This document shows, in pieces, positions 24,167 through 44,905 of a stretch of DNA of 44,905 bases; the first letter of the stretch is position 1, and each line of letters opens with the position of its first letter. The DNA lies in NCBI RefSeq assembly GCF_031178505.1, contig NZ_JAPSIW010000004.1, positions 1 to 44,905 of the forward strand. Reading direction: 5' to 3'. The position numbers and the translations under genes are program-made. The stretch comes from Streptomyces sp. (GTDB lineage: Bacteria > Actinomycetota > Actinomycetes > Streptomycetales > Streptomycetaceae). A model generated the notes under the pieces. It was not told the DNA's origin. It did not search any database and saw nothing but the letters and a program-made list of their open reading frames with translations.

Positions 24167-24212
24167 CCCGATGCGAGGTGCCCCCGTTGACGTTTCTCAG
24201 AGGAGCTCCACC

Positions 24213-25664: not shown

Positions 25665-25671
25665 GCCGGTA

Positions 25672-25714: not shown

Positions 25715-25728
25715 ACGTGTACGGGGGG

Positions 25729-26034: not shown

Positions 26035-26056
26035 CGGATCTCCTTCGCCCGGGTCG

Positions 26057-27555: not shown

Positions 27556-27686
27556 GGAGTGAGAACGCCTCCTTCGTCTTGCCCGTTGAACGGGGACGAT
27601 AGCTTGCATATCTGCTACGGAGAAGGGAGTTATCGAGGAAACCCTCCTTCGAGTCGACCTCGCGTCCTTGACGGTTACGCAAAAAG

Positions 27687-27701
27687 GAGAATACCGTTCT
27701 C
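27687..27701. promoter_or_regulatory. Operator-like palindrome, cluster consensus (copy 5)
   Basis: GAGAATACCGTTCTC lies in the 213-bp gap between the divergent P450 and Rieske genes, 67 bp before the Rieske start. One arm differs by A to G, as in copy 3. The gap holds no gene. Confidence 0.7.
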
Positions 27702-27768
27702 ACAGATCGAGATCACAGTTACCGAGCGAGCTGTACGAGCGGCGTCGTCAACTGGAGGACCCGACCCC

Positions 27769-29055: not shown

Positions 29056-29074
29056 CCCCGAGGAGGACCCCACC

Positions 29075-29404
29075 ATGGCCAGTGCATTCCCCGAGGGCTT
29101 CGAGGCCCTGGACCCGTTCGTCGACTGGGCGATCCCGACGGAGAAGGCCCGCTACGCCAAGCGGATCTCCAGCACGATGGACGAGCTCGACGCGTTCTAC
29201 GACGTTGCCTTCCCGCTCCTGAAGTCCGGCACCGCCTACCTGGAGAAGACCCCGATGGAGGGCATCTCCGAGCCCGACAAGCGCCTGCTGTGGCTGTTCT
29301 GCTCGCTGGTGACCGTCGCCTTCTCCGTGGAAGCGTGGCGCCAGCCCAGGGTGCCCGACTCGGGCGCCTCCAGCATCGACGCGGTCCTCGAGCCGACGGT
29401 CTGA
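29075..29404 (+). CDS. Small helical protein of unknown function next to the Rieske oxygenase
   Basis: A 109-residue protein with a good GAGGAGG site, 19 bp after the Rieske stop, so in the same transcript. It appears mostly helical, with many aromatic and acidic residues early on (for example ALDPFVDWAIPTE) and a hydrophobic stretch LLWLFCSLVTVAFSVEAW around 70-88. There are no cysteine pairs or known catalytic motifs. It may be an oxygenase accessory or small subunit; I do not recognise the family with confidence. Confidence 0.7.
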   Translation: MASAFPEGFEALDPFVDWAIPTEKARYAKRISSTMDELDAFYDVAFPLLKSGTAYLEKTPMEGISEPDKRLLWLFCSLVTVAFSVEAWRQPRVPDSGASSIDAVLEPTV

Positions 29405-29483
29405 AGCACCGACAGACTCCGAGTTGACCGTTCGCCCGGCTTCAACGACGAGCTCACACCTGAGCGTGTCACTTGCCACAGTG

Positions 29484-29498
29484 CAGAGTGCTATTCTC
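29484..29498. promoter_or_regulatory. Degenerate copy of the cluster palindrome (copy 6)
   Basis: CAGAGTGCTATTCTC keeps the ATTCTC arm but has two mismatches in the left arm. It lies in the 292-bp gap after the Rieske partner gene and before the glycosidase. It may be a relic or an outlying weak site. I see no other gene in the gap. Confidence 0.35.
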
Positions 29499-29696
29499 GC
29501 AGTTTGCAATCAGCCTTCTCAAGGTGTATGGGGGCCCGTATGCTGACGGCTGAGCGGCCTCTGGTGCGCTCCAGGGGGGATGACATGAACGTGACATGGC
29601 TAGCGTGTCACCCGCGGCGTACTCGGCCATCACCGATCAGCCTTACCCACCTGCCTCAATGGTCCTTATGGCTCCCGGAAGTGAGGTTGCGTCCAG

Positions 29697-31259
29697 ATGC
29701 GGACAACCAGAAGGCGCCCCATCAGGCTGGGGTCGACAGCGACAGCGATCGCCGCACTCCTCGTCACTACGTCGGTTCAGTCCGTCGCGGCGCAGGCCGA
29801 TGAGCCGCACGCGTCCATCTCCTCAGCGAAGGTATCAGTCGATTTCGGCTCGCAGCAGGGCGAACTGCCGCGTCCAGAGCGGCTGAACAACTTCGGCAAC
29901 GTCACGGCATGGCCCAAGCAACGTGCCGGCGATGTGGAGTACCTGAACAAGCAGGGGTTGCACGGCGACGTCTATCGCGTGTGGGTCAGCAGTCCCAATG
30001 CCTCCGCCGCGGACAACGTCTTCAACCAGTGCGATCTCAAGACCCGGACCTGCGACTTCTCCAGGCTAGACGCCTATCTCACCGAGGCGAGCACGGTGTC
30101 CGACTCGCTGTTGATCAACCTGAACCCGACGGACTTCGTCGAGGGCAAGCGGCCGATGCAGGACCTGGAGGCGATGCTCAAACTGATCCTGCAGAGGATC
30201 AAGGAGAAGTACCCCCGCGTCAAGTACGTCGAGGCGTTCAACGAGCCGGACTGGCAGTTCCACGGACAGCAGCGCCAGCAGGGACGCCCGGCGGACCAAA
30301 CGACGTTGCAACCCGGCGATCTGTACCGCTTTTACGAGCCGTACTACGAGGCCGTCCATCAGGTCAACAGGCACCTCCGGCGTGCGGACCGGCTCCAGCT
30401 CGGCGGACCGGCGCTGATGTACATGGACCCGAAGTGGATGAAGCCCTTCCTCGACGACTTCGCAGCCGACAAGGACCCGCGCAAGCGTCTGGACTTCCTC
30501 TCGTACCACGCCTACCTCGCTTGGGACGACGACTACCAGGTACCGACGATGTACAACGGTGACCTGAGAGTGGTGGCGTCGCAGCGGGAGACCCTGCGCG
30601 GATGGCTGGAGGAGCGCCGCATCCGCCGGGACATCCCGAGCTATGTCACCGAGACGGGCATCTATCCCGGTCCGGCCTACGACGACACCGATCCCAAGAA
30701 GGACTACATTCGGCAGGCGGCCGGCATGGCCACTTACGGCTACCTGTTCGCGAACCAGCCGGACACCTACATGTTCAACTGGTGTGTCCGGCACCGTGTC
30801 GAGGAACGCAAGGACCAGTTGGTGACCCGCACGCCCTACGGACCGGCCACCGACACCTTCACTCCATATGGGAACATGCTGCTGATGCAGTCGAGGATGA
30901 AGGACACCCGGGTGTCCGCCGTCCCGAAGGACAGCCTCGAAGGGGACAACGGTGTCTACGCGCTGGCGTCGAAGGACCGGACCGGCGCGTCCCTCATGGT
31001 CTGGAACTGGCAGCACGTGAACGACCGTAGTTACCGGGCCACCATTGACATGTCCCGGATGCCGTCGGACCTCAGGCACGGTCCGGTCCGTCGGCTCATG
31101 TACCGGATCGACCAGTCGACGAGCAACTACTTCGCCGATCCGGTCAAGGCAGAGCTCCAGCTGGTCGACAAGAGGGTCATCAGACCCGGCAGGACCCACA
31201 CCGAGATCGTCGACTTGCCACCCAACGCGATCTATCTGATCGTCCTGGAGCGCGTGTAG
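29697..31259 (+). CDS. Secreted GH39-like glycoside hydrolase
   Basis: A 520-residue exported protein. The N-terminus has a twin-arginine-rich start, a hydrophobic core and an AAQA cleavage region near residue 33. The clan GH-A barrel shows the acid/base glutamate in VEAFNEPDW (E183) and the nucleophile in SYVTETGIYPG (E319). A C-terminal beta-sandwich follows (LMVWNWQHVNDRSYRATI). Relatives are beta-xylosidases, iduronidase-like or polysaccharide-active enzymes; the specificity is open. It does not appear linked to the upstream catabolic cluster, and no sugar transporter is adjacent. Confidence 0.75.
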   Translation: MRTTRRRPIRLGSTATAIAALLVTTSVQSVAAQADEPHASISSAKVSVDFGSQQGELPRPERLNNFGNVTAWPKQRAGDVEYLNKQGLHGDVYRVWVSSPNASAADNVFNQCDLKTRTCDFSRLDAYLTEASTVSDSLLINLNPTDFVEGKRPMQDLEAMLKLILQRIKEKYPRVKYVEAFNEPDWQFHGQQRQQGRPADQTTLQPGDLYRFYEPYYEAVHQVNRHLRRADRLQLGGPALMYMDPKWMKPFLDDFAADKDPRKRLDFLSYHAYLAWDDDYQVPTMYNGDLRVVASQRETLRGWLEERRIRRDIPSYVTETGIYPGPAYDDTDPKKDYIRQAAGMATYGYLFANQPDTYMFNWCVRHRVEERKDQLVTRTPYGPATDTFTPYGNMLLMQSRMKDTRVSAVPKDSLEGDNGVYALASKDRTGASLMVWNWQHVNDRSYRATIDMSRMPSDLRHGPVRRLMYRIDQSTSNYFADPVKAELQLVDKRVIRPGRTHTEIVDLPPNAIYLIVLERV

Positions 31260-31289
31260 ACAAACCGGCGGGCGGGACGGGCCGCTCAG

Positions 31290-31993
31290 CGTGGTGGAGG
31301 CGGGCGTATGCGCCGAGTTTGGCGGCGAGGCATTCGGGGCGCCCATGGCGGCCCGGTCGACTTCGACGAAGGCTCGCAGCATCGAACTGCCCCCACCACC
31401 GTCGTCGGCGCGGTGCCGGTAGTAGAGGAGGGCGTCGGGGATGACGGCCTCACCCCCTCCGAGGGGAGTGAACCTCGGGGATCCAGTCCAGGGGCTGGCT
31501 CGTCTCCCCGTTCCCGGGAGCCCTGGACGAACGCGAGCCCGGCACGGGCCACCGTCAGGGTATGTGCGACGCGCAGCCGGGCGGCGGTGCGGTCGGACAC
31601 TGTCCGCGATGGTCGCCAGCTGCCCAGTTCGGGCCATTCGGAGGCGATCTGCGTCCCGTACTGGCGAGGAACCGGCAGCGCATGCGACTGGCCTGGGGCA
31701 GCGTAACCCGGTCCACCACCCCTCCTCGCGGAGCTTGGCCAGGCGCCGCTGTGTCTGCTCGCTCCATACCCCTGGGGCGATCAGCAGATACATCTCTCGG
31801 GTCGTCGCCTTCAGCCACGGCGCAGTACGGCCAGCGCGAAGCGGTCCCCGCCGCCTACGTCCTCGTGCATCGAGCCTGAAAGCTCGATGGTCTGTGTCAG
31901 GCGCGCGGTGGACTTCTGCGCTCCGCCCTTGCCGCGCCAGCTCGTCCTGGCCTGAAGCAACCCCGGTGCCGCGGCCGGTGGAATCCGGCCCAT
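31290..31993 (-). pseudogene. Decayed replication-relaxation family gene (plasmid/ICE type)
   Basis: Minus-strand frames carry ordered pieces of the Streptomyces replication-relaxation family. An N-terminal piece begins at the ATG at 31993 and includes DRFALAVLRRG before a stop. Next comes the winged-helix region LKATTREMYLLIAPGV and RRLAKLREEGWW (31823 downward), then HTLTVARAGLAFVQGSRERGDE in another frame, and finally DALLYYRHRADDG and LRAFVEVDRAAMGAP back in the second frame (to about 31313). At least two frameshifts and one stop make it non-functional. Intact copies accompany integrated plasmids or conjugative elements, so this marks a relic of one. Confidence 0.65.
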
Positions 31994-32082
31994 TAGGCCT
32001 TTTCACCCCAGTGGTCATCCTCAGGTAGGAGAACCACGTCGTCGTTCTGCACGAGGATGGCCCGCGCCTGCTGCGTAGCCAC
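31993..32082 (-). CDS. Possible 29-residue ORF upstream of the replication-relaxation relic
   Basis: GTG at 32082 opens a short frame ending ...NDDVVLLPEDDHWGEKA, whose TAA overlaps the ATG of the replication-relaxation frame (TAATG). The translational overlap suggests that it was a real small gene in the element or the tail of a longer one. No family is recognised. Confidence 0.3.
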   Translation of the reverse strand: MATQQARAILVQNDDVVLLPEDDHWGEKA

Positions 32083-32178
32083 GAGGACCAGGTCACTGCA
32101 CTGACACGATGCCCCGGCAGCACTTGGAAGGAGAGCCTTGGTACCTACCTGAGAACAGACTTTGGAGAGACCCTTCTC

Positions 32179-34416
32179 GTGGCTACCTTCCTGTACAGAC
32201 TGGGCCGCACCGCCTTCAGGCGGCGTTGGCTGGTGACCTTGCTCTGGGCGGTGGTCCTCGGCGGTGTCGGTCTCGGCGCCGCCAAGGCCCCGGCCGCGGG
32301 CGATGACGGCACGTCGTTCATGCCCGGCATCGAGGCCCAGAAGGCGTTCGATCTGATTGGGGAGCGATTCCCCGGCTCGGACGCCAACGGCGCCAACGCC
32401 CGCATCGTCTTCATCGCCCCCGGCGGGGAGAAGGTGACCACCGAGGACAAACGCGCTGCCATCGAGGAGCTGGTGTCCACGGCGGCCGAGGGCTCTCAGG
32501 TGGACAGCGCCGTCGATCCCTTCAAGGCCGGCGCGGTCAGCAAGGACGCCTCGACCGCGTACGCAACGGTCAATTACAAGGTCAAGTCCGGCGACCTGAC
32601 CGACACCAGCAAGGACAGCCTCGAGAGGGTCATCGAGAAGGCTCGCGGCTCGGGGCTCACCGTGGAGGTGGGCGGCACGGCTCTTGCCTCACAGCCTGCC
32701 GCGGGAGGCTCTGCCGAGGCGATCGGCATCGCCCTCGCTGCCGTCGTCCTGTTGATCACCTTCGGCTCTCTGGCCGCGGCCGGGCTGCCGCTGCTCACCG
32801 CCGTCATCGGCGTCGGTGTCAGCATGTGCGCGATCCTCGCTCTCGGCAGCGCCCTTGGCCTGTCCATGACCACCGGCACGCTCGCCTCGATGCTCGGGCT
32901 TGCGGTCGGTATCGACTACGCCCTCTTCGTCGTTTCCCGCTACCGGGAGGAGCGCGCAAACGGACACGACCCGCGGGAAGCGGCGGGCCTCGCGGTCGGC
33001 ACGGCCGGTTCCGCCGTGGTCTTCGCCGGTCTGACCGTGATCATCGCGCTCGCCGGCCTGTCCGTGGTCGGCGTGCCAATGCTGACCAAGATGGGCCTGT
33101 GCGCCGCCGGAGCGGTCGCCATCGGCGTCCTGGTCGCCCTGACCCTTGTACCCGCGCTGCTCGGCATGTGGCCGAACGCCGTCCTTTCCCGGAAGGTCCG
33201 CAAGACAGGGAAGCGGGGCGGCGGCACCGGATCCCGTTTCGGGTCCGCTGTCAACGGCGGCACCCGTTGGGCTCGCTTTGTGATGAGGCGTCCCGTGGCG
33301 GTCCTTGTGCTGGGTGTAGCCGGTCTGGGAGTCTTGGCCCTGCCCGTCGCTCAGCTGGAGATGGGCATGCCCGGCGATGAGGCGAAGCCCACGTCGACGA
33401 CGGAGCGACGTGCCTACGACGCGCTGGCCGACGGCTTCGGTGCGGGCTTCAACGGACCGCTGACCATCGTCGCCGACGTCAGGGGAGCCACCGACCCACA
33501 GAGGGCCGCAACCGCGATGGCCGAGCAGATCAAGGGCACCGACGGCGTCGTGTCCGTCACGCCCCCGCGGTTCAACGAGACCGGGGACACCGCACTCTTC
33601 TCCGCTGTGCCCGCCACCGGACCGAACGAGGAGGCCACGAAGGACATCGTCCAGACCATCCGGGCGGAGCGTCCCGGTCTGGAGGGGGACACCGGTGCGA
33701 CCTTCGAGGTCACCGGCAGCACCGCGATGGACATCGACGTCGCCCAGGCCCTGCAGAACGCTCTCGTGCCCTACCTGGCCGTCATCGTGCTGTTGTCCCT
33801 GCTGCTGCTCCTGGTGGTCTTCCGGTCCATACTCGTGCCCGTCAAGGCGGCTCTCGGGTTCCTGCTGTCGGTACTCGCCTCGCTCGGCTCGGTCGTCGCG
33901 GTCTTTCAGTGGGGCTGGGGTGCCGAACTGTTGGGCGTGGAGCAGACCGGCCCGATCATGAGCCTCATGCCGATCTTCCTGGTGGGCATCGTGTTCGGCC
34001 TGGCCATGGACTACGAGGTCTTCCTCGTCTCCCGCATGCGCGAGGCGTACGTCCACGGTGAGCGCCCCGGCCAGGCCGTGGTGAGCGGCTTCAGGCACAG
34101 CGCCCGCGTGGTCGTCGCCGCGGCCGTGATCATGATGGCGGTGTTCTCCGGCTTCATCGGATCCGGAGAGTCCATGATCAAGACGATCGGGTTCGGCCTC
34201 GCTGTCGCGGTCTTCTTCGACGCCTTCGTCGTTCGCATGGCCCTGGTGCCCGCCGTACTCACCCTGCTGGGCGACAAGGCATGGTGGCTGCCCGGGTGGC
34301 TCGACAAGGCGCTCCCCCGGGTCGACGTCGAGGGCACCGGACTCACCTCACAGGCTCAGGCGCCGGCCCCGACGGGCCCTGAGGCTCACCCGCGGGAGTC
34401 GGCCCGCACGTTCTGA
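32179..34416 (+). CDS. MMPL-family (RND-type) membrane transporter
   Basis: A 745-residue protein with two tandem six-helix halves, each preceded by an extracytoplasmic loop domain. The repeats show GLAVGIDYALFVVSRYREE in the first half and GLAMDYEVFLVSRMREAY in the second, the MMPL proton-relay segments. A single TM helix starts at about residue 17. The GTG start follows GGAGAG. It would export a lipid, metabolite or drug. The two-component system directly downstream, in the same direction but after a hairpin, may control it. It is typical of Streptomyces secondary-metabolite or resistance loci. Confidence 0.9.
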   Translation: MATFLYRLGRTAFRRRWLVTLLWAVVLGGVGLGAAKAPAAGDDGTSFMPGIEAQKAFDLIGERFPGSDANGANARIVFIAPGGEKVTTEDKRAAIEELVSTAAEGSQVDSAVDPFKAGAVSKDASTAYATVNYKVKSGDLTDTSKDSLERVIEKARGSGLTVEVGGTALASQPAAGGSAEAIGIALAAVVLLITFGSLAAAGLPLLTAVIGVGVSMCAILALGSALGLSMTTGTLASMLGLAVGIDYALFVVSRYREERANGHDPREAAGLAVGTAGSAVVFAGLTVIIALAGLSVVGVPMLTKMGLCAAGAVAIGVLVALTLVPALLGMWPNAVLSRKVRKTGKRGGGTGSRFGSAVNGGTRWARFVMRRPVAVLVLGVAGLGVLALPVAQLEMGMPGDEAKPTSTTERRAYDALADGFGAGFNGPLTIVADVRGATDPQRAATAMAEQIKGTDGVVSVTPPRFNETGDTALFSAVPATGPNEEATKDIVQTIRAERPGLEGDTGATFEVTGSTAMDIDVAQALQNALVPYLAVIVLLSLLLLLVVFRSILVPVKAALGFLLSVLASLGSVVAVFQWGWGAELLGVEQTGPIMSLMPIFLVGIVFGLAMDYEVFLVSRMREAYVHGERPGQAVVSGFRHSARVVVAAAVIMMAVFSGFIGSGESMIKTIGFGLAVAVFFDAFVVRMALVPAVLTLLGDKAWWLPGWLDKALPRVDVEGTGLTSQAQAPAPTGPEAHPRESARTF

Positions 34417-34434
34417 GACGAATCAGGCGCAGAC

Positions 34435-34468
34435 GCGCCGCGGTGCCGATGCATCGGTGCCGCGGCGC
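34435..34468. terminator. Large hairpin terminator after the MMPL gene
   Basis: GCGCCGCGG and CCGCGGCGC form the outer stem, continuing through two wobble pairs into CCGATGCATCGG. It lies 18 bp after the MMPL stop and ends just before the two-component operon. Confidence 0.75.
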
Positions 34469-34505
34469 TTCTGTCACCCTGAACCGGCTGGTCTCACCTC
34501 GGAGT

Positions 34506-35696
34506 ATGACGATGAGTGCACGATGGAAAAGCCGCGCCGCTGACCGTCCCTACACGGTTCAAGTGGCGACTACGGGCTTGCTGCTCGCCTTCACCGTAGG
34601 CGGTGTCTTCCTCACCCGGGCGGTCGCGGCCGAGGAGCCGCTCGTCCTCTGGCCCGGCCTGATGCTGTCCGTCCTGGCCTGTGCGGCATTGCTGCGCCGC
34701 CGCAGCCACCCGCTTCTCGTACTTCTGGTGACCACGGTATGCATCATGACCGAGGGGTTCCTGGGGTACCTCATGACGCCGTTGCTCATGGGGCCGATGC
34801 TGCTCGCGCAGTACACCGTGAGTCTGCGTCCTGATCGTAGGACCACCTGGTACACCGCCCTGGCAGCCGCCGCCGGTATCGCGCTCGTCGGCTTCATTAC
34901 CACAGACTTTCCGCACGAGTGGATCATCGGCTTGGTCAATCCGGCGGCCTGGGTCCTGATGGTCGCCTCCTTCGGCAGCTACGTGCGCGTGCGCCGCGAG
35001 TACGCCGTCGCCCGCGCCGACCATGCCGCCCAGGAGCGGGACGAGGAGGCACGCCGGCGGGTGATTCAGGAGCGCATGCGCATCGCACGCGAACTGCACG
35101 ACGTGGTCGCCCACCACCTCGCGCTCGCCAATGCCCAGGCCGGCACCGCCGCCCATCTGGCCCGGACCCGTCCCGACCAGGCCATCGCCATGATCGAGAA
35201 GTTGCCGGAAGTGACCGCCGCGGCCCTCCGTGAGCTCAAGGCCACCGTCGGCCTGCTGCGTCAGGACACCGACTCCCAGGAGCTGGCTCCCGCACCGGGC
35301 CTCGACCAGCTGCCGCAGCTCGTCGAAACGTGCGCGTCAGCGGGCCTGGACGTATCCGTCAGCACCGAGGGCCAGCCACAAGCACTCACGCCCGGCCTGG
35401 ACCTCACGGCATACCGGATCGTCCAGGAAGCACTGACCAATGTCACCAAGCACGCCGCCACACCCTCCGCGCGGGTGCGGCTGGACTACACCGCTCACTA
35501 CCTGACACTCACCATCACCAACGAAGCCGGCTCACCTCCCTCGGCTGCTGCCGCCTCTCGTGGCTTCGGACTGCTCGGCATGCGCGAACGTGCCTTGTCG
35601 GCAGGGGGAACGTTCCACGCCGGCCCGCGGCCCGGAGGCGGTTTCGAAGTCGCCTGCGCGCTTCCCCTTCCCAGCTCCGAGGAGAGCACCTCATGA
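34506..35696 (+). CDS. Two-component sensor histidine kinase (NarL/DesK type)
   Basis: A 396-residue membrane kinase. The N-terminus has about five hydrophobic segments (residues 20-160), then a short coiled linker and a HisKA_3 dimerisation domain with the phospho-accepting H198 in ARELHDVVAHHL. The HATPase domain shows YRIVQEALTNVTKHA and GFGLLGMRERA. The ATG at 34506 was chosen over the one at 34443, which lies inside the terminator; 34512 is also possible. Its stop overlaps the response-regulator start. The lack of a large external domain suggests sensing within the membrane, for example envelope stress. Confidence 0.9.
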   Translation: MTMSARWKSRAADRPYTVQVATTGLLLAFTVGGVFLTRAVAAEEPLVLWPGLMLSVLACAALLRRRSHPLLVLLVTTVCIMTEGFLGYLMTPLLMGPMLLAQYTVSLRPDRRTTWYTALAAAAGIALVGFITTDFPHEWIIGLVNPAAWVLMVASFGSYVRVRREYAVARADHAAQERDEEARRRVIQERMRIARELHDVVAHHLALANAQAGTAAHLARTRPDQAIAMIEKLPEVTAAALRELKATVGLLRQDTDSQELAPAPGLDQLPQLVETCASAGLDVSVSTEGQPQALTPGLDLTAYRIVQEALTNVTKHAATPSARVRLDYTAHYLTLTITNEAGSPPSAAAASRGFGLLGMRERALSAGGTFHAGPRPGGGFEVACALPLPSSEESTS

Positions 35697-36370
35697 CCAT
35701 CCGCGTTCTGCTCGCCGACGATCAGGCGCTGCTCCGGGCCACCTTCCGCATCCTTATCGACTCCGACCCGGACATGACGGTCGTAGCAGAGGCAACTGAC
35801 GGGCAGCAGGCCGTGCAACTGACCCTCGAGCACCACCCCGACGTCGTCCTCATGGACATCCGCATGCCGGGCACCGACGGACTGGCCGCCACTGCGGACA
35901 TCTGCGCCCGGACCGAGCTGTCGAGCACCCGGGTCCTGATCCTCACCACCTTCGAGAACGACGAGAATGTCGCCCTCGCCCTGCGGTCCGGGGCGAGCGG
36001 ATTCCTCGGCAAGGACGTCGGCCCCGACGTCCTGTTGGCGGGCATCCGTACCGTGGCGGCGGGAGACTCCCTGCTCTCCCCTACGGCCACCCGGGCATTG
36101 ATCACCCGCTTCCTGGCCTCCCCGGCCGACCACGTGCCCCTCGCCGCGCCAGAGCGTCTCACCCTGCTCACCGAGCGTGAACGTGAGGTCATGGCACTGG
36201 CCGCGCTGGGCAAGTCGAACCATGAGATCGCCGACCAGCTGGTCCTCAGCCATCTGACGGTACGCACCCACATCTCCCGCGCGATGACCAAGCTCGACGC
36301 ACGCGACCGGGCTCAACTGGTCGTGATCGCCTACCAGAGCGGCCTTGTCCGACCGGACCTCGGCGGTTGA
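35693..36370 (+). CDS. LuxR/NarL-type response regulator
   Basis: A 225-residue regulator with a receiver domain (acidic DD at 9-10, phospho-Asp55 in VVLMDIRMPG, Lys106) and a C-terminal LuxR helix-turn-helix (LTEREREVMALAALGKSNHEIA). It is coupled to the kinase by an ATGA overlap. The adjacent MMPL transporter is a plausible target. No gene follows for about 980 bp. Confidence 0.93.
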   Translation: MTIRVLLADDQALLRATFRILIDSDPDMTVVAEATDGQQAVQLTLEHHPDVVLMDIRMPGTDGLAATADICARTELSSTRVLILTTFENDENVALALRSGASGFLGKDVGPDVLLAGIRTVAAGDSLLSPTATRALITRFLASPADHVPLAAPERLTLLTEREREVMALAALGKSNHEIADQLVLSHLTVRTHISRAMTKLDARDRAQLVVIAYQSGLVRPDLGG

Positions 36371-37350
36371 CCACCTCCCGAGCGTTGTTGCCCGGTCGCC
36401 CCGATGACACGGCCGTGCTGCGCTACATGGGCCGTACTGTCCCGCTCGCCCGGGCCTCGGCCGCCGCGTTCGCGGGGGTGCTGGTGCCAGCGGTGGGCGG
36501 GCATCCGTGGACGGGGTGCACGTGCACTGCCGGTGGGGTGCGCACAACGTTCTGGCCATCACCCTCGTTCACCCCGATCGGCGGGGTCACCGATGACGGT
36601 CCAGGTCTTTGTGGACCGTTCTGTTCCTGGAGTTCCCGCTGATGGTGTCGGTGGTGTTGGGCTTCGTGGGGCTGGTGAAGACCCGCTCGGTATATTTGCG
36701 CAGCACGGTCCAGACGCTGGCTTTGCCGGTGTACTCCTGTGCCTGCCTATCGGCGTTGATGCGGTAGAGGTGGCTGGCGGTTGGGACCACGATGCCGGCT
36801 CCACCGCCCCAGGGCTGTGCTACCTCGGGCTTGCTCGATGCGGGTGCGGTCGATGCCGGGGCAGGTGATGACCGCGGCGTGTGCCGGACTTCCACCCGAG
36901 CCATCGGACCGGTGTGCGGGGAACTCGGTCCCCCGGGTGCCGCGCTCTGCCGGACTTGCCCGCGGGGTCGCGGTCTCGGGCTGGTCGTTCGAGTTCTGGG
37001 GCCGGCTGGCGATGATGAGGACGGAGACCAGGGCCGCGAGGACCGCCCGTTGCGCAGGCGCCGGGAGTGGATCGCTCGAGGCCGGCGGGTTGTCCGCGAA
37101 CAAGCCCACTTCTTCGCCGTTGCTGTACGTAGGCTCCGGAGTTGAAGCAGGAGCCGGTCCTCACGCCTGGTCTCGATCGGCGCCGGGGCTGTCCTGGACG
37201 GACCGCGATGGTGACGCGGCACTCGGTGCTGGTGCTGGTGCGGTGGCAGGGGAGGGGGGCGCTGACCATGGCAGCAGCTTGGAGTCGGCGTGCCTCCTGG
37301 TGCTTCTGGTGCGGGCGCGATGCGGCGCCTTGCGGGAGTACCCTCTTCGC
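36371..37350. other. Gene-poor stretch with possible decayed coding sequence
   Basis: No reading frame here has a convincing family signature. On the minus strand, frames between about 37160 and 36587 show pieces with gene-like composition: an Ala/Pro/Ser-rich segment with a hydrophobic run (RAVLAALVSVLIIASRP) in one frame, and a segment with SHLYRINADRQAQEY and WTVLRKYTERVFTSP in another. They look like a frame-shifted relic of a small membrane or mobile-element protein, but I cannot name it. Weak codon bias also argues against an intact gene. Confidence 0.4.
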
Positions 37351-37941
37351 GTGACACGACCTCTGTCTGACGAACAGCCTTCCGGCAATCAGGGACGTAA
37401 GGTCGCCGCTCGCAACCGCGTTGCTCTCATCGCCGCCGCCCGGGAAATTTACGCGGAGCACGGTCTGGACGCACCGTTGTCCGCGATCGCGCGCCGTGCC
37501 GGCGTTGGTCAGGGAGTGCTGTACCGGCACTTCCCCGACCGGGCCGCCATAGGCACCGCGGTGCTGGAAGAGAATGTCAGGCAGATCGAGCAGGTTGCGG
37601 CGGCGGACGCCTCGGACATCGTGAGAATTCTGGGTGTGCTCACCTGGCATGTGACCGAGTCGACGGCCTTCCTGGGCATTCTCCACACGCATGGTGCATC
37701 CAGCCGCTCTAGTGCCCTCGCGTATGCCGCCGCGCTGTCGAAGCGTGTTGAACAGGCTGTGCGGGCACGCCTGCCGGGCGGTCACCGGCTTGCTGGCCAT
37801 CCTGATGACCTGATGATCGCCATCGCCATGGTATCCGGGGCTGCCACCGGCCCCACCCGCGAGCACCGGGAACGCCGGGCACAGGCGGCCTGGCGGTTGC
37901 TGGGCGTCGAGGTGGGGCCGGTGCGGCCTTACGAAGAGTGA
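37351..37941 (+). CDS. TetR-family transcriptional regulator
   Basis: A 196-residue regulator with a TetR helix-turn-helix (RVALIAAAREIYAEHGLD, then AIARRAGVGQGVLYRHFPDRAAI). The GTG start at 37351 follows GGGAG. The C-terminal ligand domain resembles the SbtR-like group (TWHVTESTAFLG and MVSGAATG). It converges on an SMP-30 lipoprotein gene with a six-base gap between stops. A candidate target is the palindrome at 39021-39038 in the promoter of its neighbours. Confidence 0.88.
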   Translation: MTRPLSDEQPSGNQGRKVAARNRVALIAAAREIYAEHGLDAPLSAIARRAGVGQGVLYRHFPDRAAIGTAVLEENVRQIEQVAAADASDIVRILGVLTWHVTESTAFLGILHTHGASSRSSALAYAAALSKRVEQAVRARLPGGHRLAGHPDDLMIAIAMVSGAATGPTREHRERRAQAAWRLLGVEVGPVRPYEE

Positions 37942-37947
37942 CCGACG

Positions 37948-38970
37948 TCAGCCGCCATTGGACTGCCGTACTCCCTCCGCGAGCGCGTCGAAGGCGTACA
38001 GGTAGCCCCCGTCCGGCCCGCTGACGGTCATGTAGGCCCGGGTCCCGCCGGGCGTGATGGCCACGTTGGTCGCCGACTCCAGCCCATCGGCGGCACGGCC
38101 CGGGACCTCCACGGTCGCCACGCGCTCACCGTTCTTACTGTAGACCGCCATCGCTGGCCGGCCGTGCAGTCCCTGGTAGAGGTTGCCGTCGGCGTCCACG
38201 GCGATGGAGTCGGTCTGCGCGATGCCGCCGTCGACCCGGATCGCGGTGTGCCGGGAGGCCACGGCACCCTCCTTGTCCAGGAGAAGGTAGGAGATGCGGT
38301 TCTGCGTCAGCTCGCTGAACCACAGCCCTCGGTAGTCCGCGTCGAAGGAGATGCCGTTCGGCGCGGCGAGGCCGTCTGCCAGGACTGTGGCGTCCTTCCC
38401 CGAGCGGTCGATGCGCACCACGCGTCCCTTCGCCTCGCCCTCCGACATGCCGCGCGAGTCACTGACGTACAGGTTTCCCTCCCGATCGAAGGCGAGGTCG
38501 TCGGGATTCATCGGCGCTCCGTCGACCCCGCCGGAGAAGAAGGTCCGCGGATCACCGCCGTCCGGGGCGAGACTGACGATGTCGCCGCTGGAGAAGTCGG
38601 TCAGGTAGATCCGTCCGTCGTACGGGCTGAACTGGGCCGAGGTGTAGTTTCCTCGGTCGTCGGTGTGGAACTGCTCGGACGTGTTCTTCCGGACATTCAC
38701 GCGCAGCACCTTCGGCGCGCCGGCCGGCGCGGTGACGTCGACGACGAGCAGCCTGCCGTCCTTGTCGAAGACCGGGCCCTCCAGCAGGGTCATCCCGGTC
38801 TGCTCGTGCACCTCGGTCAGGCGCATGACCTGCTGCGCGCGGAGGGTCCGGTCCCCTCCGATGGCGCCCGGGTCCGCCGTGGCGTCGGCCGTCTGCGTAC
38901 CGCATCCGGTGAGGGCCAGTACAGCGAGGCCGGCGAGCCCGGCGAGCGGGCGGATCGGGAGTCGTCGCAT
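37948..38970 (-). CDS. SMP-30/gluconolactonase-like lipoprotein
   Basis: A 340-residue exported beta-propeller. The ATG at 38970 gives a lipoprotein signal peptide: RR start, LAGLAGLAVLAL core and lipobox LTGC with Cys23. An in-frame start at 39084 would place this signal 38 residues in and is rejected. Repeats with DKDGRLLVVD, DREGNLYVSDSRG, LAAPNGISFD and DADGNLYQGL are typical of the six-bladed SMP-30 lactonase propeller, with the Asn of PNGI as a probable metal ligand. It could hydrolyse a lactone outside the membrane. It is divergent from a Baeyer-Villiger monooxygenase, an enzyme type that makes esters and lactones. Confidence 0.82.
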   Translation of the reverse strand: MRRLPIRPLAGLAGLAVLALTGCGTQTADATADPGAIGGDRTLRAQQVMRLTEVHEQTGMTLLEGPVFDKDGRLLVVDVTAPAGAPKVLRVNVRKNTSEQFHTDDRGNYTSAQFSPYDGRIYLTDFSSGDIVSLAPDGGDPRTFFSGGVDGAPMNPDDLAFDREGNLYVSDSRGMSEGEAKGRVVRIDRSGKDATVLADGLAAPNGISFDADYRGLWFSELTQNRISYLLLDKEGAVASRHTAIRVDGGIAQTDSIAVDADGNLYQGLHGRPAMAVYSKNGERVATVEVPGRAADGLESATNVAITPGGTRAYMTVSGPDGGYLYAFDALAEGVRQSNGG

Positions 38971-39020
38971 GCGAATCACTTTTCCTGTCCGAAAGTATGC
39001 GGAAGCAACCTGAGGGCCAA

Positions 39021-39038
39021 CCGGACAACACTGTCCGG
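39021..39038. promoter_or_regulatory. Perfect palindrome between lipoprotein and BVMO genes
   Basis: CCGGACAACACTGTCCGG has perfect 7-bp arms with a 4-base spacer. It lies in the divergent promoter region of the SMP-30 lipoprotein and the BVMO. A dyad of this size suits a TetR protein, probably the one at 37351. Confidence 0.65.
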
Positions 39039-39144
39039 TCCTTGTTACCGTAGTGCATGGCTGCTCAAGTCCTATGCCCTGCATCTCAGTTCATGGACGA
39101 GGTGGCTTCTTGCCAGCGAACCGGAAGGAACGAGGTCCCCCCAC

Positions 39145-40953
39145 ATGGCACGTTCACAGGAGCTGACTCCCGAGGTACTCGCTGAGCTCAGAGAGCGGTA
39201 CCGGGTCGAGCGGGAGCGGCGTGTGCGCCCCGACGGCACCCGGCAGTATCTCGGTGCCGACGCCGAGTTCGGCTACTACGCCGCCGACCCCTACACGGAA
39301 GAGCCGACCGAACGCGAACCGGTACGGGACCGGGTGGACGTCGCGGTCGTCGGCGGCGGCTTCGGCGGCATCCTCGCAGGGGCACGGTTGCGGCAGCGGG
39401 GCATCGGCAGCGTCCGCGTGATCGAGAAGGGTGGTGACTTCGGCGGCACCTGGTACTGGAACCGCTACCCGGGCATCCACTGCGACATCGAGTCACACGT
39501 GTACCTGCCGCTGCTCGACGAGACCGGTTACGTGCCGGAGTGGAAGTACGCGCCCGGCGAGGAGATCCGTCGGCACGCGGTGCGGATCGCGGAGAAGTTC
39601 GACCTCTACGCGGACACCCTGTTCTCCACGGCGGTCACGTCACTGACCTGGGACGACACGTCCGAGGCGTGGATCGTCACGACCGACCGGGGTGACAAGT
39701 TCCGGGCGACGTACGTCGTCACGGCCACCGGCACCCTGACCGAGCTGAAGCTGCCCGGCATCCCCAGCATCGAGAAGTTCGAGGGCCACACCTTCCACAC
39801 CTCGCGCTGGGACTACGCCTACACCGGCGGCACTCCGGACGGCGGCCTGACCGGCCTCACGGACAAGCGCGTGGGCATCGTGGGCACCGGCGCCACCGGC
39901 ATCCAGGTCGTCCCGAAACTGGCCGAGGACGCTCGGCACCTCTACGTATTTCAGCGCACTCCCTCCACGGTGGACGTGCGCGCCAACCGCCGCACAACCG
40001 CCCAGGACGTCGGCGCCGACCGACCCGGCTGGGCGACCGAGCGCCGTGACAACTTCCTGCGCATCGTCTCGGGCGAGAGCGCGGAGGAGGATCTGGTGGC
40101 GGACCGGTGGACCCGGTCGGCCGGTCTCCTGGAGAAGCTCCTGCCGAGTTTCCGCCGTCCTGGCGACCGGGCAGCCTTCGAAGCGGCCTACGAGGTCGCG
40201 GACGCCGCCAAGATGAACGAGATCCGTGCCCGTGTCGAGGAGATCGTCGCCGATGCGGAGACCGCGGACAGGCTCAAGCCCTGGTACCGGTACGCGTGCA
40301 AGCGCCCCACCTTCTCCGACCTGTACCTCCAGGCGTTCAACCGGGACAACGTCACCCTCGTCGACACCGCCGACACCCACGGCATCGAGCGGATGACCGA
40401 GCGCGGCGTCGTGGTCGGCGGAAGCGAGTACGAACTGGACTGCCTGATCTTCGCCACCGGCTTCTCCGTCGGCGTCTCCGGCATCCACTCGGGCCGGCTG
40501 CCCGTGCGCGGCCGGGACGGCACCCGGTTGCGGGACGCGTGGGCCGCGCGAGGACCGCGCACGCTGCACGGTTTCACCAGCAACGGCTTCCCGAACCTGA
40601 TCCAGCTGGGAGGGACGCAGAGCGCGGCAAGCGTCAACTTCACGCATGTCCTGGACGAGCACGCTGTCCACGCCGCGGCACTCGTCGCGGCCGCCGAGGC
40701 GAAGGGCGCCCTCATCGAACCCTCCCGCGAGGCCGAGGACGCCTGGCTCGCCACCCTGGCCGAGGACGCCCCCGACCACGCGTGGTTCCACGCCGAGTGC
40801 ACCCCCGGCTACTACAACGGCGAGGGACGCGGCCGGCCGAACGGCCCCACCGCCTACCCCCACGGAGCCTTCGCCTTCCACGCGCTCCTGAAGCAGTGGC
40901 GTGCACAGTCCATGGGCGAAGCGCTGCAGACCAGGAGGACTGTCCAGCTGTAG
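39145..40953 (+). CDS. Type I Baeyer-Villiger monooxygenase
   Basis: A 602-residue NADPH/FAD enzyme that inserts oxygen next to a ketone to give an ester or lactone. The start follows a GAGG site. The N-terminal extension of about 60 residues is seen in the PAMO/cyclopentadecanone/steroid monooxygenase subgroup. The FAD loop is VVGGGFGGILAG (68-79), followed by GGTWYWNRYPG, the BVMO fingerprint FEGHTFHTSRWD (212-223), the NADPH loop GIVGTGATGIQ (244-254) and the ATG linker in TATGT. The substrate may be a large or cyclic ketone. It stands alone with a terminator at 40987. Confidence 0.95.
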   Translation: MARSQELTPEVLAELRERYRVERERRVRPDGTRQYLGADAEFGYYAADPYTEEPTEREPVRDRVDVAVVGGGFGGILAGARLRQRGIGSVRVIEKGGDFGGTWYWNRYPGIHCDIESHVYLPLLDETGYVPEWKYAPGEEIRRHAVRIAEKFDLYADTLFSTAVTSLTWDDTSEAWIVTTDRGDKFRATYVVTATGTLTELKLPGIPSIEKFEGHTFHTSRWDYAYTGGTPDGGLTGLTDKRVGIVGTGATGIQVVPKLAEDARHLYVFQRTPSTVDVRANRRTTAQDVGADRPGWATERRDNFLRIVSGESAEEDLVADRWTRSAGLLEKLLPSFRRPGDRAAFEAAYEVADAAKMNEIRARVEEIVADAETADRLKPWYRYACKRPTFSDLYLQAFNRDNVTLVDTADTHGIERMTERGVVVGGSEYELDCLIFATGFSVGVSGIHSGRLPVRGRDGTRLRDAWAARGPRTLHGFTSNGFPNLIQLGGTQSAASVNFTHVLDEHAVHAAALVAAAEAKGALIEPSREAEDAWLATLAEDAPDHAWFHAECTPGYYNGEGRGRPNGPTAYPHGAFAFHALLKQWRAQSMGEALQTRRTVQL

Positions 40954-40986
40954 GGAAGGTCTTCGGACCACCGTCCGTCTAGGTGC

Positions 40987-41014
40987 GCCGCTCACCGGGC
41001 TGCCGGTGAGCGGC
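40987..41014. terminator. Hairpin terminator after the BVMO gene
   Basis: GCCGCTCACCGG-GCTG-CCGGTGAGCGGC is a perfect 12-bp stem with a four-base loop, 33 bp after the stop. Confidence 0.85.
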
Positions 41015-41250
41015 ACGGGGTGACGCCGAAGGTAAGGAGCAGGATCGCTGCGACCAGCTCCTCCGGTTGTGACACACGGTCGAGGGTGGCGAACCGGTCC
41101 ACCGCCGCGGTTAGCGGGCTGCACCACCGAACTGAGGCGACCCCAGCCACCCCAGTGACACAACAGGCAATGTGGGGGCGGAACCAGCACCCACACCGAG
41201 GACGGTCCTTGGAGCGCGAACGAATCGGTCATCCTCGCAGGGGGGCGGCG

Positions 41251-41435
41251 TCATTCGGCTGTCTCCTCTTCCTGCTGGACGCCGGATGATGGTGCGAGTA
41301 TCCGCGTGAATGTCTCGGCGATGGCGACGATGTCTACGGTGGGTTCGTGCATTCACCGAAGCTGTAGGCCGTCCAGGAGCGCCAACATCGCCCTGGCCAG
41401 ATGGTCGGCCGGTTCGTCAGCCCGGATGACGCCAG
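41251..41435 (-). pseudogene. C-terminal fragment of a TetR-type regulator with an internal stop
   Basis: The minus strand reads ADEPADHLARAMLALLDGLQLR, then a TGA, then directly in the same frame MHEPTVDIVAIAETF and TRILAP. TetR tails typically continue GLQLQW..., so the TGA sits where a Trp (TGG) is expected. The DNA-binding half is absent and unrelated AT-richer sequence begins at about 41440. The remaining gap sequence from 41015 to 41250 contains only short decayed pieces in several frames, with no intact gene. Confidence 0.5.
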
Positions 41436-41578
41436 CCACCGTGGGCCTTCGTGGAGCCACGCACGCCGCAGGGTTTGGAGACGTCAACGTGATGCCGACT
41501 GCATGCTTCGTCCCTAGCCAATGTCACTGCCGGTATCAGCAACGACAGTCACGCTCGGGTTTGTAGAGCAGGCGCTTA

Positions 41579-42436
41579 GAGGCCGTTTCTGATGGCGTGA
41601 TCATTCGTTGAGCAGTGCATGACGGATCTGGTTGAGCGGTTGGTGCCGGACGAGTTGTGGACGCTGTTCCGGCGGGTGGTCCCGCCGACGGAGGTCATAC
41701 GTCCGCAGGGCGGCGGCAAACGGAGGGCCGGTGACCGCGAATGCCTGGCAGCGATCATCTTCGTGGCCACCTCGGGCTGCACCTGGCGGCAGCTGCCGCC
41801 GGTGTTCGGGCCGGCCTGGCCCACCGTCTACCGGCGCTTCGCCCAGTGGAGCCAGGCCAGGGTGTGGGCCAGGCTCCACCGGGTCGTCCTCGACGAACTC
41901 GGTGCGCGGGGCGAGCTGGACTGGTCGCGGTGCGCGATCGATTCGGTCAGCGTCCGGGCGGCAAAAGGGGGCCTCTGACCGGACCGAATCCGACCGACCG
42001 TGGCAAGAGCGGATCGAAAATCCACCTCATCACCGACCGGAACGGCGTGCCGCTGTCGCTGGGCATCTCCGGCGCGAACATGCACGACAGCCTCGGCCTG
42101 CAGCCGCTCGTGCGCGGGATCCCGCCCATCCGATCCCGCCGCGGACCGCGCCGCCGGCGTCCTGCCAAGCTCCACGCCGACAAGGGCTACGACTACAACC
42201 GCCTGCGGAAATGGCTTCGCGAGCGTCGCATCCGCCACCGCATCGCCCGCAAGGGCATCGAGTCTTCCACCCGGCTGGGCCGACACCGCTGGGTCGTCGA
42301 GAGAACGGTCTCCTGGCTGGCCGGCTGCCGCCGCCTGCACCGCCGCTACGAACGCAAGGCCGAACACTTCCTCGCCTTCGTCGGCATAGCCGCAGCCCTC
42401 ATCGCCCACCGTCGACTCGCCAAGTGAAACGACGTC
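41579..42436 (+). mobile_element. IS5-family insertion sequence A (IS427-like), complete
   Basis: An 858-bp element. Terminal inverted repeats are GAGGCCGTTTC (41579-41589) and GAAACGACGTC (42426-42436), matching at 9 of 11 positions. Both ends are flanked by TTA (41576-41578 and 42437-42439), a 3-bp target duplication. The size and two-frame transposase fit the IS427 group. Confidence 0.85.
41619..42427 (+). CDS. IS5-family DDE transposase made by -1 frameshifting
   Basis: The first frame (41619-41978, 119 residues) has the N-terminal DNA-binding region and the first catalytic Asp in WSRCAIDSVSVRAAKGG. It stops just after an A4G5 run (near 41964). The -1 frame continues with GSKIHLITDRNGVPLSL, the second Asp in LHADKGYDYNRL, and the catalytic Glu in RHRWVVERTVSWLAG, ending at 42427 inside the right terminal repeat. 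A -1 slip on the AAA/GGG codons of this run would give one full transposase of about 270 residues, as known for many IS427-group elements. All catalytic residues are present, so the element may be active. Confidence 0.85.
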
Positions 42437-42439
42437 TTA

Positions 42440-43533
42440 AAGAGCGTTTTGTCCCGGCAAGGTTGTTTGGTTCGAGGTTCAGGTATCGCGCCAGTTCGGG
42501 GTCGATTCGCGGGTGAGTCGTCGGCTTATGAGGTCGATCATCGCGATGTGAATCATGGCTTCGGACCGGTGGGCGTGGGTTTCGTAGTCGCGGGCCAGTC
42601 GGCGGTGGTGCATGAGCCAGCCGAAGGTCCGCTCGACCACCCATCGCCGGGGAATCACCTTGAAGCCTTTGGTTCCAGGGTTGCGCTGGACGACTTCGAC
42701 GTCGATGCCGAGGCGGGCGCCGTGGTCGATCACCTTCGTGCGGTATCCGGTGTCGGCCCATGCCTTGGTCACGTGGGGGCTTGTGCCGGCGATCTGGGAG
42801 AGCAGGTGGATGCCGCCGGCATTGTCGGAGACGCTGGCCGCGCTCACCCAGACGGCCAGGAGCAGCCCGAGGGCGTCGACCCCGAGGTGACGCTTACGAC
42901 CTGCAATCTTCTTGCCTGCGTCAATGCCCTGGCCGGCTGCGGGCACGTTGGCGGAGGTCTTGATGCTCTGCGCGTCCAGCACACAGGCACTTGGTTCGGC
43001 GTCCCGCCCCTCGGCCTGACGGACCAGGCGCCGCAGCAGGCCGTTGAGCCGGTCGAAGACACCTTCCTTCTGCCATGCGGCGAAGTAGCCGTAGACGGTT
43101 TCCCAGGGGGCGAAGTCGTGCGGCAGGTACCGCCATGGGATGCCGGTGCGGTCGACGTAGAGGATGGCGTCCATGATGCGGCGCAGGTCGTGCTCGGATG
43201 GACGGCCAATGTCCAGGCCCTTGCCCCTGCGCTCGGCCCGCCAGGCGGTGAGCGTGGGTCCGATCAGTTCCCAGCGGGCGTCGGACAGGTCGCTGGGATA
43301 CGGGCGCTGTCGCGTCATGTTTCGGTAGTAGCGTCAGGAGCGGCACCGGCCCAGGGCGCAAACGGCGTCAACCAGGGGCGTGTTGGGATCAGACAGGAGC
43401 GAGTACATCGAAACGGGCCGAGGTCTCGCCTCTGTAGTCACACAGCCTTCGCAGGACCCTAGCGTCTCAACGACCCCACGGCGGTCCGCGACCTAAGGGC
43501 CACCAAACAACCTTGCCGGGACAAAACGCTCTT
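42440..43533 (-). mobile_element. IS5-family insertion sequence B, complete
   Basis: A 1094-bp element with 32-bp perfect terminal inverted repeats (42440-42471 and 43502-43533, beginning AAGAGCGTTTTGTCCC). Flanking copies of TTA at 42437-42439 and 43534-43536 form its target duplication. The perfect repeats and intact transposase suggest recent insertion. Confidence 0.92.
42479..43318 (-). CDS. IS5-family transposase (element B)
   Basis: A single-frame 279-residue DDE transposase. The N-terminus RPYPSDLSDARWELI is characteristic. Catalytic residues are seen in CVLDAQSIKTSANV (Asp), KAWADTGYRTKV (Asp) and PRRWVVERTFGWL (Glu), followed by HHRRLARDYETHAHRSEAM. Between the right end of the gene and the right terminal repeat there is about 180 bp without a gene. 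It is clearly related to the transposase of element C but not identical. Confidence 0.93.
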   Translation of the reverse strand: MTRQRPYPSDLSDARWELIGPTLTAWRAERRGKGLDIGRPSEHDLRRIMDAILYVDRTGIPWRYLPHDFAPWETVYGYFAAWQKEGVFDRLNGLLRRLVRQAEGRDAEPSACVLDAQSIKTSANVPAAGQGIDAGKKIAGRKRHLGVDALGLLLAVWVSAASVSDNAGGIHLLSQIAGTSPHVTKAWADTGYRTKVIDHGARLGIDVEVVQRNPGTKGFKVIPRRWVVERTFGWLMHHRRLARDYETHAHRSEAMIHIAMIDLISRRLTRESTPNWRDT

Positions 43534-43536
43534 TTA

Positions 43537-44652
43537 GTGAGCGTTTGATTCTGATATTGGATGTTTCAGGGGGAATTCCAGGAGCCGTTTGAGAGCTCAG
43601 CGAAGCGATTCGCCGGAAACACGGCTTATGCAGCAATCAGCGAAGCAGTAATGCGCCGGTTTCCTTCCAAGAGCTCTTGTCTCATTCAGAAACCTACCGG
43701 TTCACGCCGAGTTGAGAGCGCACGCCCCCCGCAACCAGCACCCCCGCACACGCCCTGCCCAAGCCAGCCGCCGCCACGTACGCAGACCTTATGCAGCCCT
43801 CACGGCCCTACCCCAGCGACCTGTCCGACGCCCGCTGGGAACTCATCCGCCCCACCCTCGAAGCCTGGCGCCAGGCCCGCAACGGCATCCGCAAACCCAC
43901 CCACGACCTGCGCGCCCTCATGAACGCCATCCTCTACGTCGACCGCACCGGCATTCCCTGGCGCTACCTGCCCCACGACTTCCCACCCCACCAGACCGTC
44001 TACGGCTACTTCGCCCGCTGGGAAGCCGACGGCATCTTCGACCAGCTCACCGGCCTGCTCCGCGGCAAAGTCCGCCAGGTCGAAGGCCGCACCAGCGAAC
44101 CCAGCGCCTGCCTGATCGACAGCCAGAGCATCAAAACCTCCGCCACCGTCCCCCTGACCAGCCAAGGCGTCGACCCAGCCAAAAAGATCATCGGACGCAA
44201 ACGGCACATCGTCACCGACACCCTCGGCCTCCTCCTGGCCGTCACCGTCACCGCCGCCAGCGTCCACGACTCCGCGGCCGGCACTCAGCTCCTGACCAAG
44301 GTCGCCGCACTCCACCCGACCGTCACCAAAGCCTGGGCCGACAACGGCTACAAGACCAAAGCCGTCGAACACGCCGCCCACCTCGGAATCGACCTCGAGA
44401 TCGTCCAACGCGACCCCACCACCCGCGGCTTCCACGTCCAACCCCGCCGCTGGGTCGTCGAACGCACCCTCGGCTGGCTCATGCACCACCGCCGCCTGGC
44501 CCGCGACTACGAAACCCACCCCCACCGATCCGCAGCCATGATCCAACTCGCCGCCATCAACCTCATGACCCGCCGCCTCACCCACGAAACCACCCACAAC
44601 TGGCGCGACAGCTAAACCAAATGAAACAGACAACCGAGAACCAAACGCTCAC
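43537..44652 (+). mobile_element. IS5-family insertion sequence C, complete
   Basis: A 1116-bp element. Terminal inverted repeats are GTGAGCGTTTGATTCT at 43537 and AGAACCAAACGCTCAC ending at 44652, with one mismatch. TTA flanks both ends (43534-43536 and 44653-44655). The first 254 bp before the transposase are AT-richer than the rest and hold no recognisable gene. Confidence 0.9.
43791..44615 (+). CDS. IS5-family transposase (element C)
   Basis: A 274-residue single-frame DDE transposase, similar throughout to that of element B. Signatures are RPYPSDLSDARWELIRP, the first Asp in CLIDSQSIKTSATV, the second in KAWADNGYKTKA, and the Glu in PRRWVVERTLGWLMHHRR. No frameshift or stop is seen, so it may be functional. 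Confidence 0.93.
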   Translation: MQPSRPYPSDLSDARWELIRPTLEAWRQARNGIRKPTHDLRALMNAILYVDRTGIPWRYLPHDFPPHQTVYGYFARWEADGIFDQLTGLLRGKVRQVEGRTSEPSACLIDSQSIKTSATVPLTSQGVDPAKKIIGRKRHIVTDTLGLLLAVTVTAASVHDSAAGTQLLTKVAALHPTVTKAWADNGYKTKAVEHAAHLGIDLEIVQRDPTTRGFHVQPRRWVVERTLGWLMHHRRLARDYETHPHRSAAMIQLAAINLMTRRLTHETTHNWRDS

Positions 44653-44830
44653 TTAGTCCTGCAGGGGCAGTATCGGCCTTGCGACCGCGAAGGTCACGCG
44701 AGGCGACGTCCGGAGAGGCGGGGAAGCACCGACCTGGCAGATGCGGCCGAGCCTCGGAACTGTCGTACGCCGGGCCGCGCCCCGAGAGGCTGTCACCGTC
44801 CCGGGTGCGGTGTCCCGTCGGTCGCTGAGG

Positions 44831-44905
44831 TCATGCCTCCCGCTGCGCGTCGATCTCGGCGACGAGGGCCTCGATGCGGGTCCGGATCTCGTCGCGGATG
44901 GGGCG
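44831..44905 (-). CDS. C-terminus of an unidentified protein, runs off the window
   Basis: The last 24 codons on the minus strand read RPIRDEIRTRIEALVAEI and a short tail before TGA (44831-44833). The R-x-IRDEI-x-x-R pattern recalls the C-terminal helix of low-molecular-weight phosphatase-like arsenate reductases (ArsC), but the piece is too short to be sure. The 175 bp between it and element C show no gene. Confidence 0.4.
   Translation of the reverse strand, partial: RPIRDEIRTRIEALVAEIDAQREA

Follow-up and report, generated by a model that had tools for sequence, protein, structure and literature searches.

Three different insertion sequence (IS) elements lie end to end in the window analysed here, a stretch of 44,905 bases that represents contig C303 of a draft Streptomyces genome (7.27 Mb, 1072 contigs, 84.6% complete), and each pair of neighbours is separated by one copy of the triplet TTA. 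How does an array arise in which adjacent elements share a single target copy? The junctions formed by related elements in the genus make it likely that IS5 elements of the group represented by the second and third member prefer to insert at the TNA that borders a resident IS5-type element, with their 5' end against the end of the resident.

Composition of the array

Direct reading confirmed the order given by a first-pass annotation of the window, namely TTA, IS A, TTA, IS B, TTA, IS C and TTA with single shared triplets. In the following list, element limits are based on terminal-repeat comparison, transposases on open reading frames (ORFs) with domain or family profile matches, and shared triplets on the sequence and junction analysis.

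41300..41575, + strand: left flank, 100% identical in the sister genome G195, where it runs into a truncated tRNA-Arg
41576..41578, + strand: outer left TTA, read from the sequence; the same TTA is found in the IS-free sister genome
41579..42436, + strand: IS A, 858 bp, A-type (IS1237/IS427-like), with the ends GAGGCCGTTT and GACGTCGTTT
41619..41978, + strand: first reading frame of the IS A transposase (DUF4096)
41741..42427, + strand: open frame with the DDE part of IS A, only the 3' part of which belongs to the transposase; -1 relative to the first frame at GCAAAAGGGGGCC
42437..42439, + strand: TTA common to A (3' end) and B (3' end)
42440..43533, - strand: IS B, 1094 bp, with perfect inverted repeats of 32 bp (AAGAGCGTTTTGTCCCGGC...)
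42479..43318, - strand: IS B transposase, 279 amino acids
43534..43536, + strand: TTA common to B (5' end) and C (5' end)
43537..44652, + strand: IS C, 1116 bp, with GTGAGCGTTTG at both ends
43791..44615, + strand: IS C transposase, 274 amino acids
44653..44655, + strand: outer right TTA, read from the sequence
44656..44905, + strand: right flank, the first 85-137 bp of which are conserved in eight relatives with a different upstream sequence

The three elements are complete, in line with the intact ends and transposases given in the first-pass annotation; terminal inverted repeats were found in each of them by end comparison, and the transposases match the profile NF033580. A, B and C all belong to the IS5 family as defined by this profile. 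At a cut-off of 110 bits, the transposases of B and C scored 205.9 and 215.2 bits, and that of A matched in two pieces with 100.5 (below the cut-off) and 140.6 bits. The domains PF13340 (DUF4096) and PF01609 (DDE) are both present in the B and C proteins and are divided between the two frames in A. Protein comparison also agreed with the proposal that B and C are related and that A represents a different group with a frameshift transposase: B and C share 68% identity, and the second frame of A is 31% identical to C over 147 amino acids. A trait of the IS427 group, a pair of overlapping frames together with a frameshift site, was found in A only. Of 15 A copies, that of the window among them, 14 stop the first frame at the same TGA, 13 have the motif AAAAGG ahead of this TGA, and 12 keep the -1 frame open over 154 codons. 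Because these features are kept across the copies, the -1 frame change is probably programmed rather than a lesion, and a fused protein may be made.

When the array was searched against the genus, 361 of 392 genomes gave matches, with at most two candidates scored per genome. The closest homologue of IS A, with 98% identity over about 856 bp, was found in genome G133. Outside the array, the genome of the window contains a partial B copy on contig C347 and short matches only; its NF033580 matches number 15 in total. Junctions of the array type recur in genomes of one to three contigs (G140, G013, G307, and G015), which shows, against an assembly artefact, that this type of structure is real.

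Longer variants of both types were observed. A-type elements of 1.37-1.54 kb with GACGTCGTTT-like ends carry an extra small ORF that differs between copies and belongs to DUF1877 (L080), DUF4240 (L087) or DUF3885 (L096); three further extra-ORF stretches of long A-type elements had no Pfam match. These families include immunity-type proteins, and the long copies may be cargo-carrying IS elements. The longer B-type form of about 1.54 kb (L163, L164, L050, and L042) has the same ends, about 450 additional bp and a long transposase frame.

Target sequence and recurrence of edge junctions

The target was deduced from 32 full-length homologous copies outside the window, whose ends were set by alignment alone. 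The flanking triplet was TNA in 31 of 32 cases on the left and likewise on the right, and the left and right triplets agreed in 21 of the 32 copies. C preceded TNA in 25 of 32 copies and G followed it in 23 of 31. Judged from these alignments, insertion takes place at C-TNA-G and duplicates 3 bp, in line with the CTTAG-like target with TTA that the first-pass annotation had suggested. The support for the duplication comes from the homologous copies, as the outer flanks of the window do not themselves prove it. A 3-bp TNA target goes with the group label IS1237-like / IS1031-like, in part after PMC2516522.

Junctions of two facing IS ends that share one TNA were searched in the 392 genomes with the pattern AAACG-N5-TNA-N5-CGTTT, which yielded 60 loci in 48 genomes. 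According to their end sequences, 45 of these (35 genomes) were judged IS-like and 15 background, a division made after the list had been seen. A control pattern with the spacing increased by 1 bp gave 29 strand-specific hits in 27 of the 392 genomes; since the true junction pattern is palindromic, about half of this number, i.e., 14-15 loci, is expected by chance. A backwards-pattern control gave 7 loci. Transposases were present on both sides of 27 IS-like junctions, on one side of 13 and on neither side of 5, and beside none of the 10 background junctions that were fetched out of 15. When the gap between facing ends was determined at 108 loci of the array-query search, 3 bp occurred 19 times and every other value from -5 to 40 at most three times. 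With 60 loci against about 15 and 7 by chance, the proposal that elements insert into the TNA bordering a resident is supported, and such insertions recur widely.

It might be argued that such edges are ordinary good CTNAG sites and that insertions of one IS into another persist as harmless. A and C have a G as first and a C as last base and therefore recreate CTNAG, so that their edges read CTTAG; B starts with AAG and ends with CTT, and its edges do not. Isolated IS edges are also CTNAG-like, with an outward G in 68% of 106, and selection for harmless sites is to be expected. The frequency of edge insertion does not fit this explanation. A junction-blind pattern search gave 268 hits in 158 of 387 genomes, compared with about 37 hits for its backwards control. 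Among the 150 hits listed were 46 B-type sites; validation confirmed 35 of them as B ends, and an IS-type end adjoins 11 of the 35. Uniform use of CTNAG predicts that only about 0.4% of insertions fall at an edge, based on 929 NF033580 matches in 34 genomes, or about 27 per genome, and a CTNAG density of 1.64 per kb. The nominal excess for B of more than 50-fold is rough, because the value of 27 includes partial genes and the density was measured in IS-rich loci. As a control, none of 186 CTNAG sites in L179-L196 was followed by an IS-type end. Taken together with the polarity described below, plain site preference appears improbable.

The corresponding rate for C, 6 of 33, is not used as the main figure, as it covers about half of the approximately 70 listed GTGAG hits and depends on a lenient validation passed by 33 of 35; the newly fetched sites were mostly TTA/TAA and the others came from the array-query search. 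Ends of the window itself are counted in both rates (two B hits, one C hit). Another candidate rate, 31 of 138 edges abutting another IS, was dropped, as sampling may favour arrays and the motif used to find elements already required TNA.

Further arrays of at least three elements were seen in G179, where B is central, and in G140, where two C copies lie between two other ends. A third case is L084 (G125:C29), where an A-type copy lies between two inverted end-like copies with the same 30 bp pointing outward (GACCGTGTCCTACGTGG...). B-type ends at L052, L054, L059, and L212 also adjoin recurring end-like sequences similar to GTGCCTGTTTCTGAACCCC, which are perhaps from a different IS or a miniature inverted-repeat transposable element. 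Among the hits of the control with +1-bp spacing, the sequence AAACGACAAGCTGAGAGGTCGTTT recurred, with three occurrences in G297 (C1, C2, and C3) and close variants in G173 and G321; it is possibly an end variant of another element.

Polarity of the junctions

Polarity was analysed for 54 distinct two-ended elements of about 1.1 kb with a single ORF, assigned to classes B, C, D and E and including B and C of the window. Class D has CTGAG ends, class E comprises elements of 1.09-1.135 kb with other, mostly GAG ends, and some B elements measure about 1.54 kb. Another IS end adjoined only the 5' end in 36 elements, only the 3' end in 2, both ends in 5 and neither in 11 (p=5e-9 if independent). 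For those B and C elements that were not selected by junctions, the ratio of 5' to 3' was 17:2 among 32 (p=7e-4), and for D and E, mostly picked by a polarity-blind pattern, it was 18:0 among 20. An IS5 transposase was present within 1.4 kb past the abutting 5' end in 31 of 41 cases, several of them weak, compared with 4 of 47 in the comparison set of 3' ends without an adjoining IS end. The end presented by the partner was the 3' end in 16 cases and the 5' end in 15. The end used by the newcomer is nearly fixed (5', upstream of the transposase), whereas that of the partner is not. Selection of neutral sites does not account for a newcomer polarity of 36:2 alongside this even use of partner ends.

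The 27 junctions with transposases on both sides comprised 16 of 5'-3', 9 of 5'-5' and 2 of 3'-3' type. In genome G226, each of three C copies has its 5' end on a different A-like end. Among 38 A-type elements, an IS end adjoined the 5' side of 4 and the 3' side of 8, and it was mostly a B- or E-type end; A-type elements look like residents.

Several points weigh against a polarised edge preference. Both 3'-3' junctions run counter to the rule; one is A|B of the window, and the other, L166, involves a B-type copy without a detected second end, which hence stands outside the 54. The preference is not absolute, as 11 of the 54 elements adjoin nothing recognisable, and no IS5 transposase was detected for 10 of the 41 partners, in addition to the weak detections among the remaining 31. 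As to sampling, the array-query loci may be enriched in arrays, the query being an array itself and at most two candidates being considered per genome; D and E were largely chosen by the junction pattern, so that only their polarity is informative; and copies from the same genome may not be independent. The classes and the list of IS-like junctions were set after the data had been seen, and the end of the E member L011 is doubtful. All evidence for edge targeting comes from natural junctions. Finally, the absence of B-B junctions (p=0.15) and the scarcity of junctions between two non-G ends (p=0.07) were not significant; the depletion of non-G/non-G junctions was accordingly dropped as proof that CTNAG is regenerated.

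Circles or dimers that transpose could also give rise to head-to-tail copies. Two C copies in this arrangement, with a single TNA between them, do occur in G140 and G307. Most of the 45 IS-like junctions join different end sequences, however, partner polarity is random, and the dimer of one element cannot yield A-B-C. As a general source of the tandems, this route seems very improbable; it is already excluded for heterologous arrays and possible for pairs of the same element only.

In the polarised edge insertion that we consider likely, a B- or C-type element would insert into C-TNA-G with a 3-bp duplication and thereby build the array. By using the edge TNA of the resident, the newcomer would leave neighbours separated by a single TNA. 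The transposase complex may read the IR-like end of the resident (inverted repeat, IR; G-N4-CGTTT-like) as part of its target. Whether the IS5 clade of about 1.1 kb has evolved a dedicated, polarity-specific targeting of other IS5 ends, by which it nests in register, spares host genes and forms IR-IR junctions from which rearrangements arise, is a more far-reaching idea whose chances we consider about even.

Suitable systems for comparison are IS30 and IS911, the latter a member of the IS3 family. The targets of IS30 are hot spots on the one hand and sites adjoining its own inverted repeats on the other, its orientation specificity is pronounced, and the resulting IR-IR junctions promote rearrangements; such dual target specificity is described in the cited part of PMC9333248 as documented otherwise only for IS911 (Loot 2002). 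Insertion directly beside a resident inverted repeat, as in IS30 and IS911, was also found here, in natural junctions. IS30 uses its own ends, forms junctions of left with right inverted repeats (IRL-IRR) and makes 2-bp duplications at hot spots (PMC9333248, as far as cited), whereas the present elements adjoin heterologous IS5 ends with a 3-bp TNA. Junctions were not exclusively IRL-IRR, as the newcomer's 5' end met partner 3' ends (16) and 5' ends (15) alike. By analogy, edge targeting would work like the IS30 reaction without being identical to it.

Within the IS5 family, IS1237 and ISLxx6 of Leifsonia xyli resemble IS A in their ends (GAGGTGGTTTC / GAGATGGTTTC) and in a TTA (TAA) duplication; IS1237 shares the -1 frame change, while ISLxx6 has a single ORF (PMC2516522). 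In the cited sections of that paper, these elements are assigned to the IS427 group with IS1031-like residues, and the authors propose another group within IS5. Four IS1237 copies were found inside other IS elements of the IS21 and IS481 families; these insertions are internal and not at edges, and the same sections report neither end-to-end arrays nor polarity (PMC2516522). IS427-group elements of Paracoccus are likewise IS5 elements of about 830-865 bp with two overlapping ORFs and a frameshift motif, like IS A, but the relevant table rows give 2-bp duplications (one of 4 bp), and the cited part of the paper does not mention edge targeting (PMC3281130). In a literature search limited to open-licence papers, we recognised no description of edge targeting by IS5 elements. 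The junction data suggest that the new aspect is the 5'-end polarity of IS5 edge insertion onto different elements, which resembles the IR targeting of IS30 and IS911.

Clustering of IS elements is usually ascribed to selection or hot spots, and a polarised edge preference offers a testable molecular reason. If true, it would account for arrays whose neighbours have one target copy in common and would allow insertions to be dated relative to each other from their orientation. It would also link arrays to rearrangement breakpoints such as that of the window.

Flanks of the array and order of insertion

The first-pass annotation had proposed GCGCTTAGTCC as the original empty site and comparison with IS-free relatives as the way to recover it. 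Neither G195 nor eight further relatives reproduced this sequence; the flanks lie at different loci in relatives, and the outer TTA triplets are not one demonstrated duplication. A search with the joined flanks in the 392 genomes, with one or two candidates scored in each, gave no listed match that crosses the joint by more than a few bases.

G195 is collinear with positions 22,875-41,586 of the window in blocks of 95-99% identity with gaps between them. The left flank is completely identical up to GCGCTTAGA and is then followed by GAAGGCACGTGC..., whose complementary strand corresponds to the 5' half of a tRNA-Arg(tct)-like sequence. Near position 157,588 of G195:C75 (L174, L179, and L180), this half breaks off after CTTCTAAGC, past the anticodon loop. 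The assignment as a tRNA fragment is based on comparison with an intact tRNA-Arg(tct) on G000:C888; at the G195 junction, Rfam gave no match at E<=1 and ARAGORN none, consistent with a truncated tRNA. The right flank of the window was not matched by megablast in the next 19.6 kb or so of G195, and matches elsewhere were possibly missed as few candidates were scored. Its start (44656-44790; L187-L194) corresponds to a block of 85-137 bp that is conserved in the eight relatives behind other upstream sequences. The triplet preceding this block is AGA in four of them and CGG, TGA, GGA, and AGG in one each, but never TTA; only TGA fits a TNA target, and CGACA lies upstream in five of the eight.

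Since the left flank joins a tRNA fragment in G195 and the right block has other upstream sequences, the view of the two outer flanks as halves of one target is not supported. The array seems to be bordered by sequence from two separate sites and probably sits on a rearrangement breakpoint. The simplest reading of the flank mismatch would be an IS-mediated deletion or inversion, possibly caused by the array itself.

These flanks also bear on the possibility that the array as a whole is a product of rearrangement. B and C would then have been at the right locus and A at the left, and either the 3' end of B attacked the edge of A, which led to a deletion or inversion of the one-ended or IR-targeted kind, or there was recombination between two B copies. 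The different origins of the flanks fit this scenario, as do the 3'-3' orientation of the A|B junction, the rearrangements driven by IR-IR junctions of IS30 (the cited part of PMC9333248), and the finding that the 1.5 kb of G195 past the left junction are absent from the draft genome of the window, except for one match to tRNA-Arg and three hits that are both short and weak. In a draft of this completeness, however, missing pieces may be gaps, and such a rearrangement is compatible with edge insertion and may be its last step. As an origin of the array it appears possible, if rather doubtful.

Under polarised edge insertion, A would have been resident first, C would have landed on the right edge of A with its 5' end first, and B would then have entered the TTA between A and C with its 5' end facing C. 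Subsequently, or while it was being formed, the array would have joined two separate loci by IS-mediated rearrangement. The order A, C, B is somewhat favoured for three reasons: A probably came first because its class is usually resident; B may have recognised C because, under the polarity rule, their 5' ends face each other; and an existing A-CTTAG-C that B entered last gives the best fit because B's own edges are poorer CTNAG targets. In G195, the truncated tRNA-Arg junction may have been left behind by an integrative element or by an IS rearrangement.

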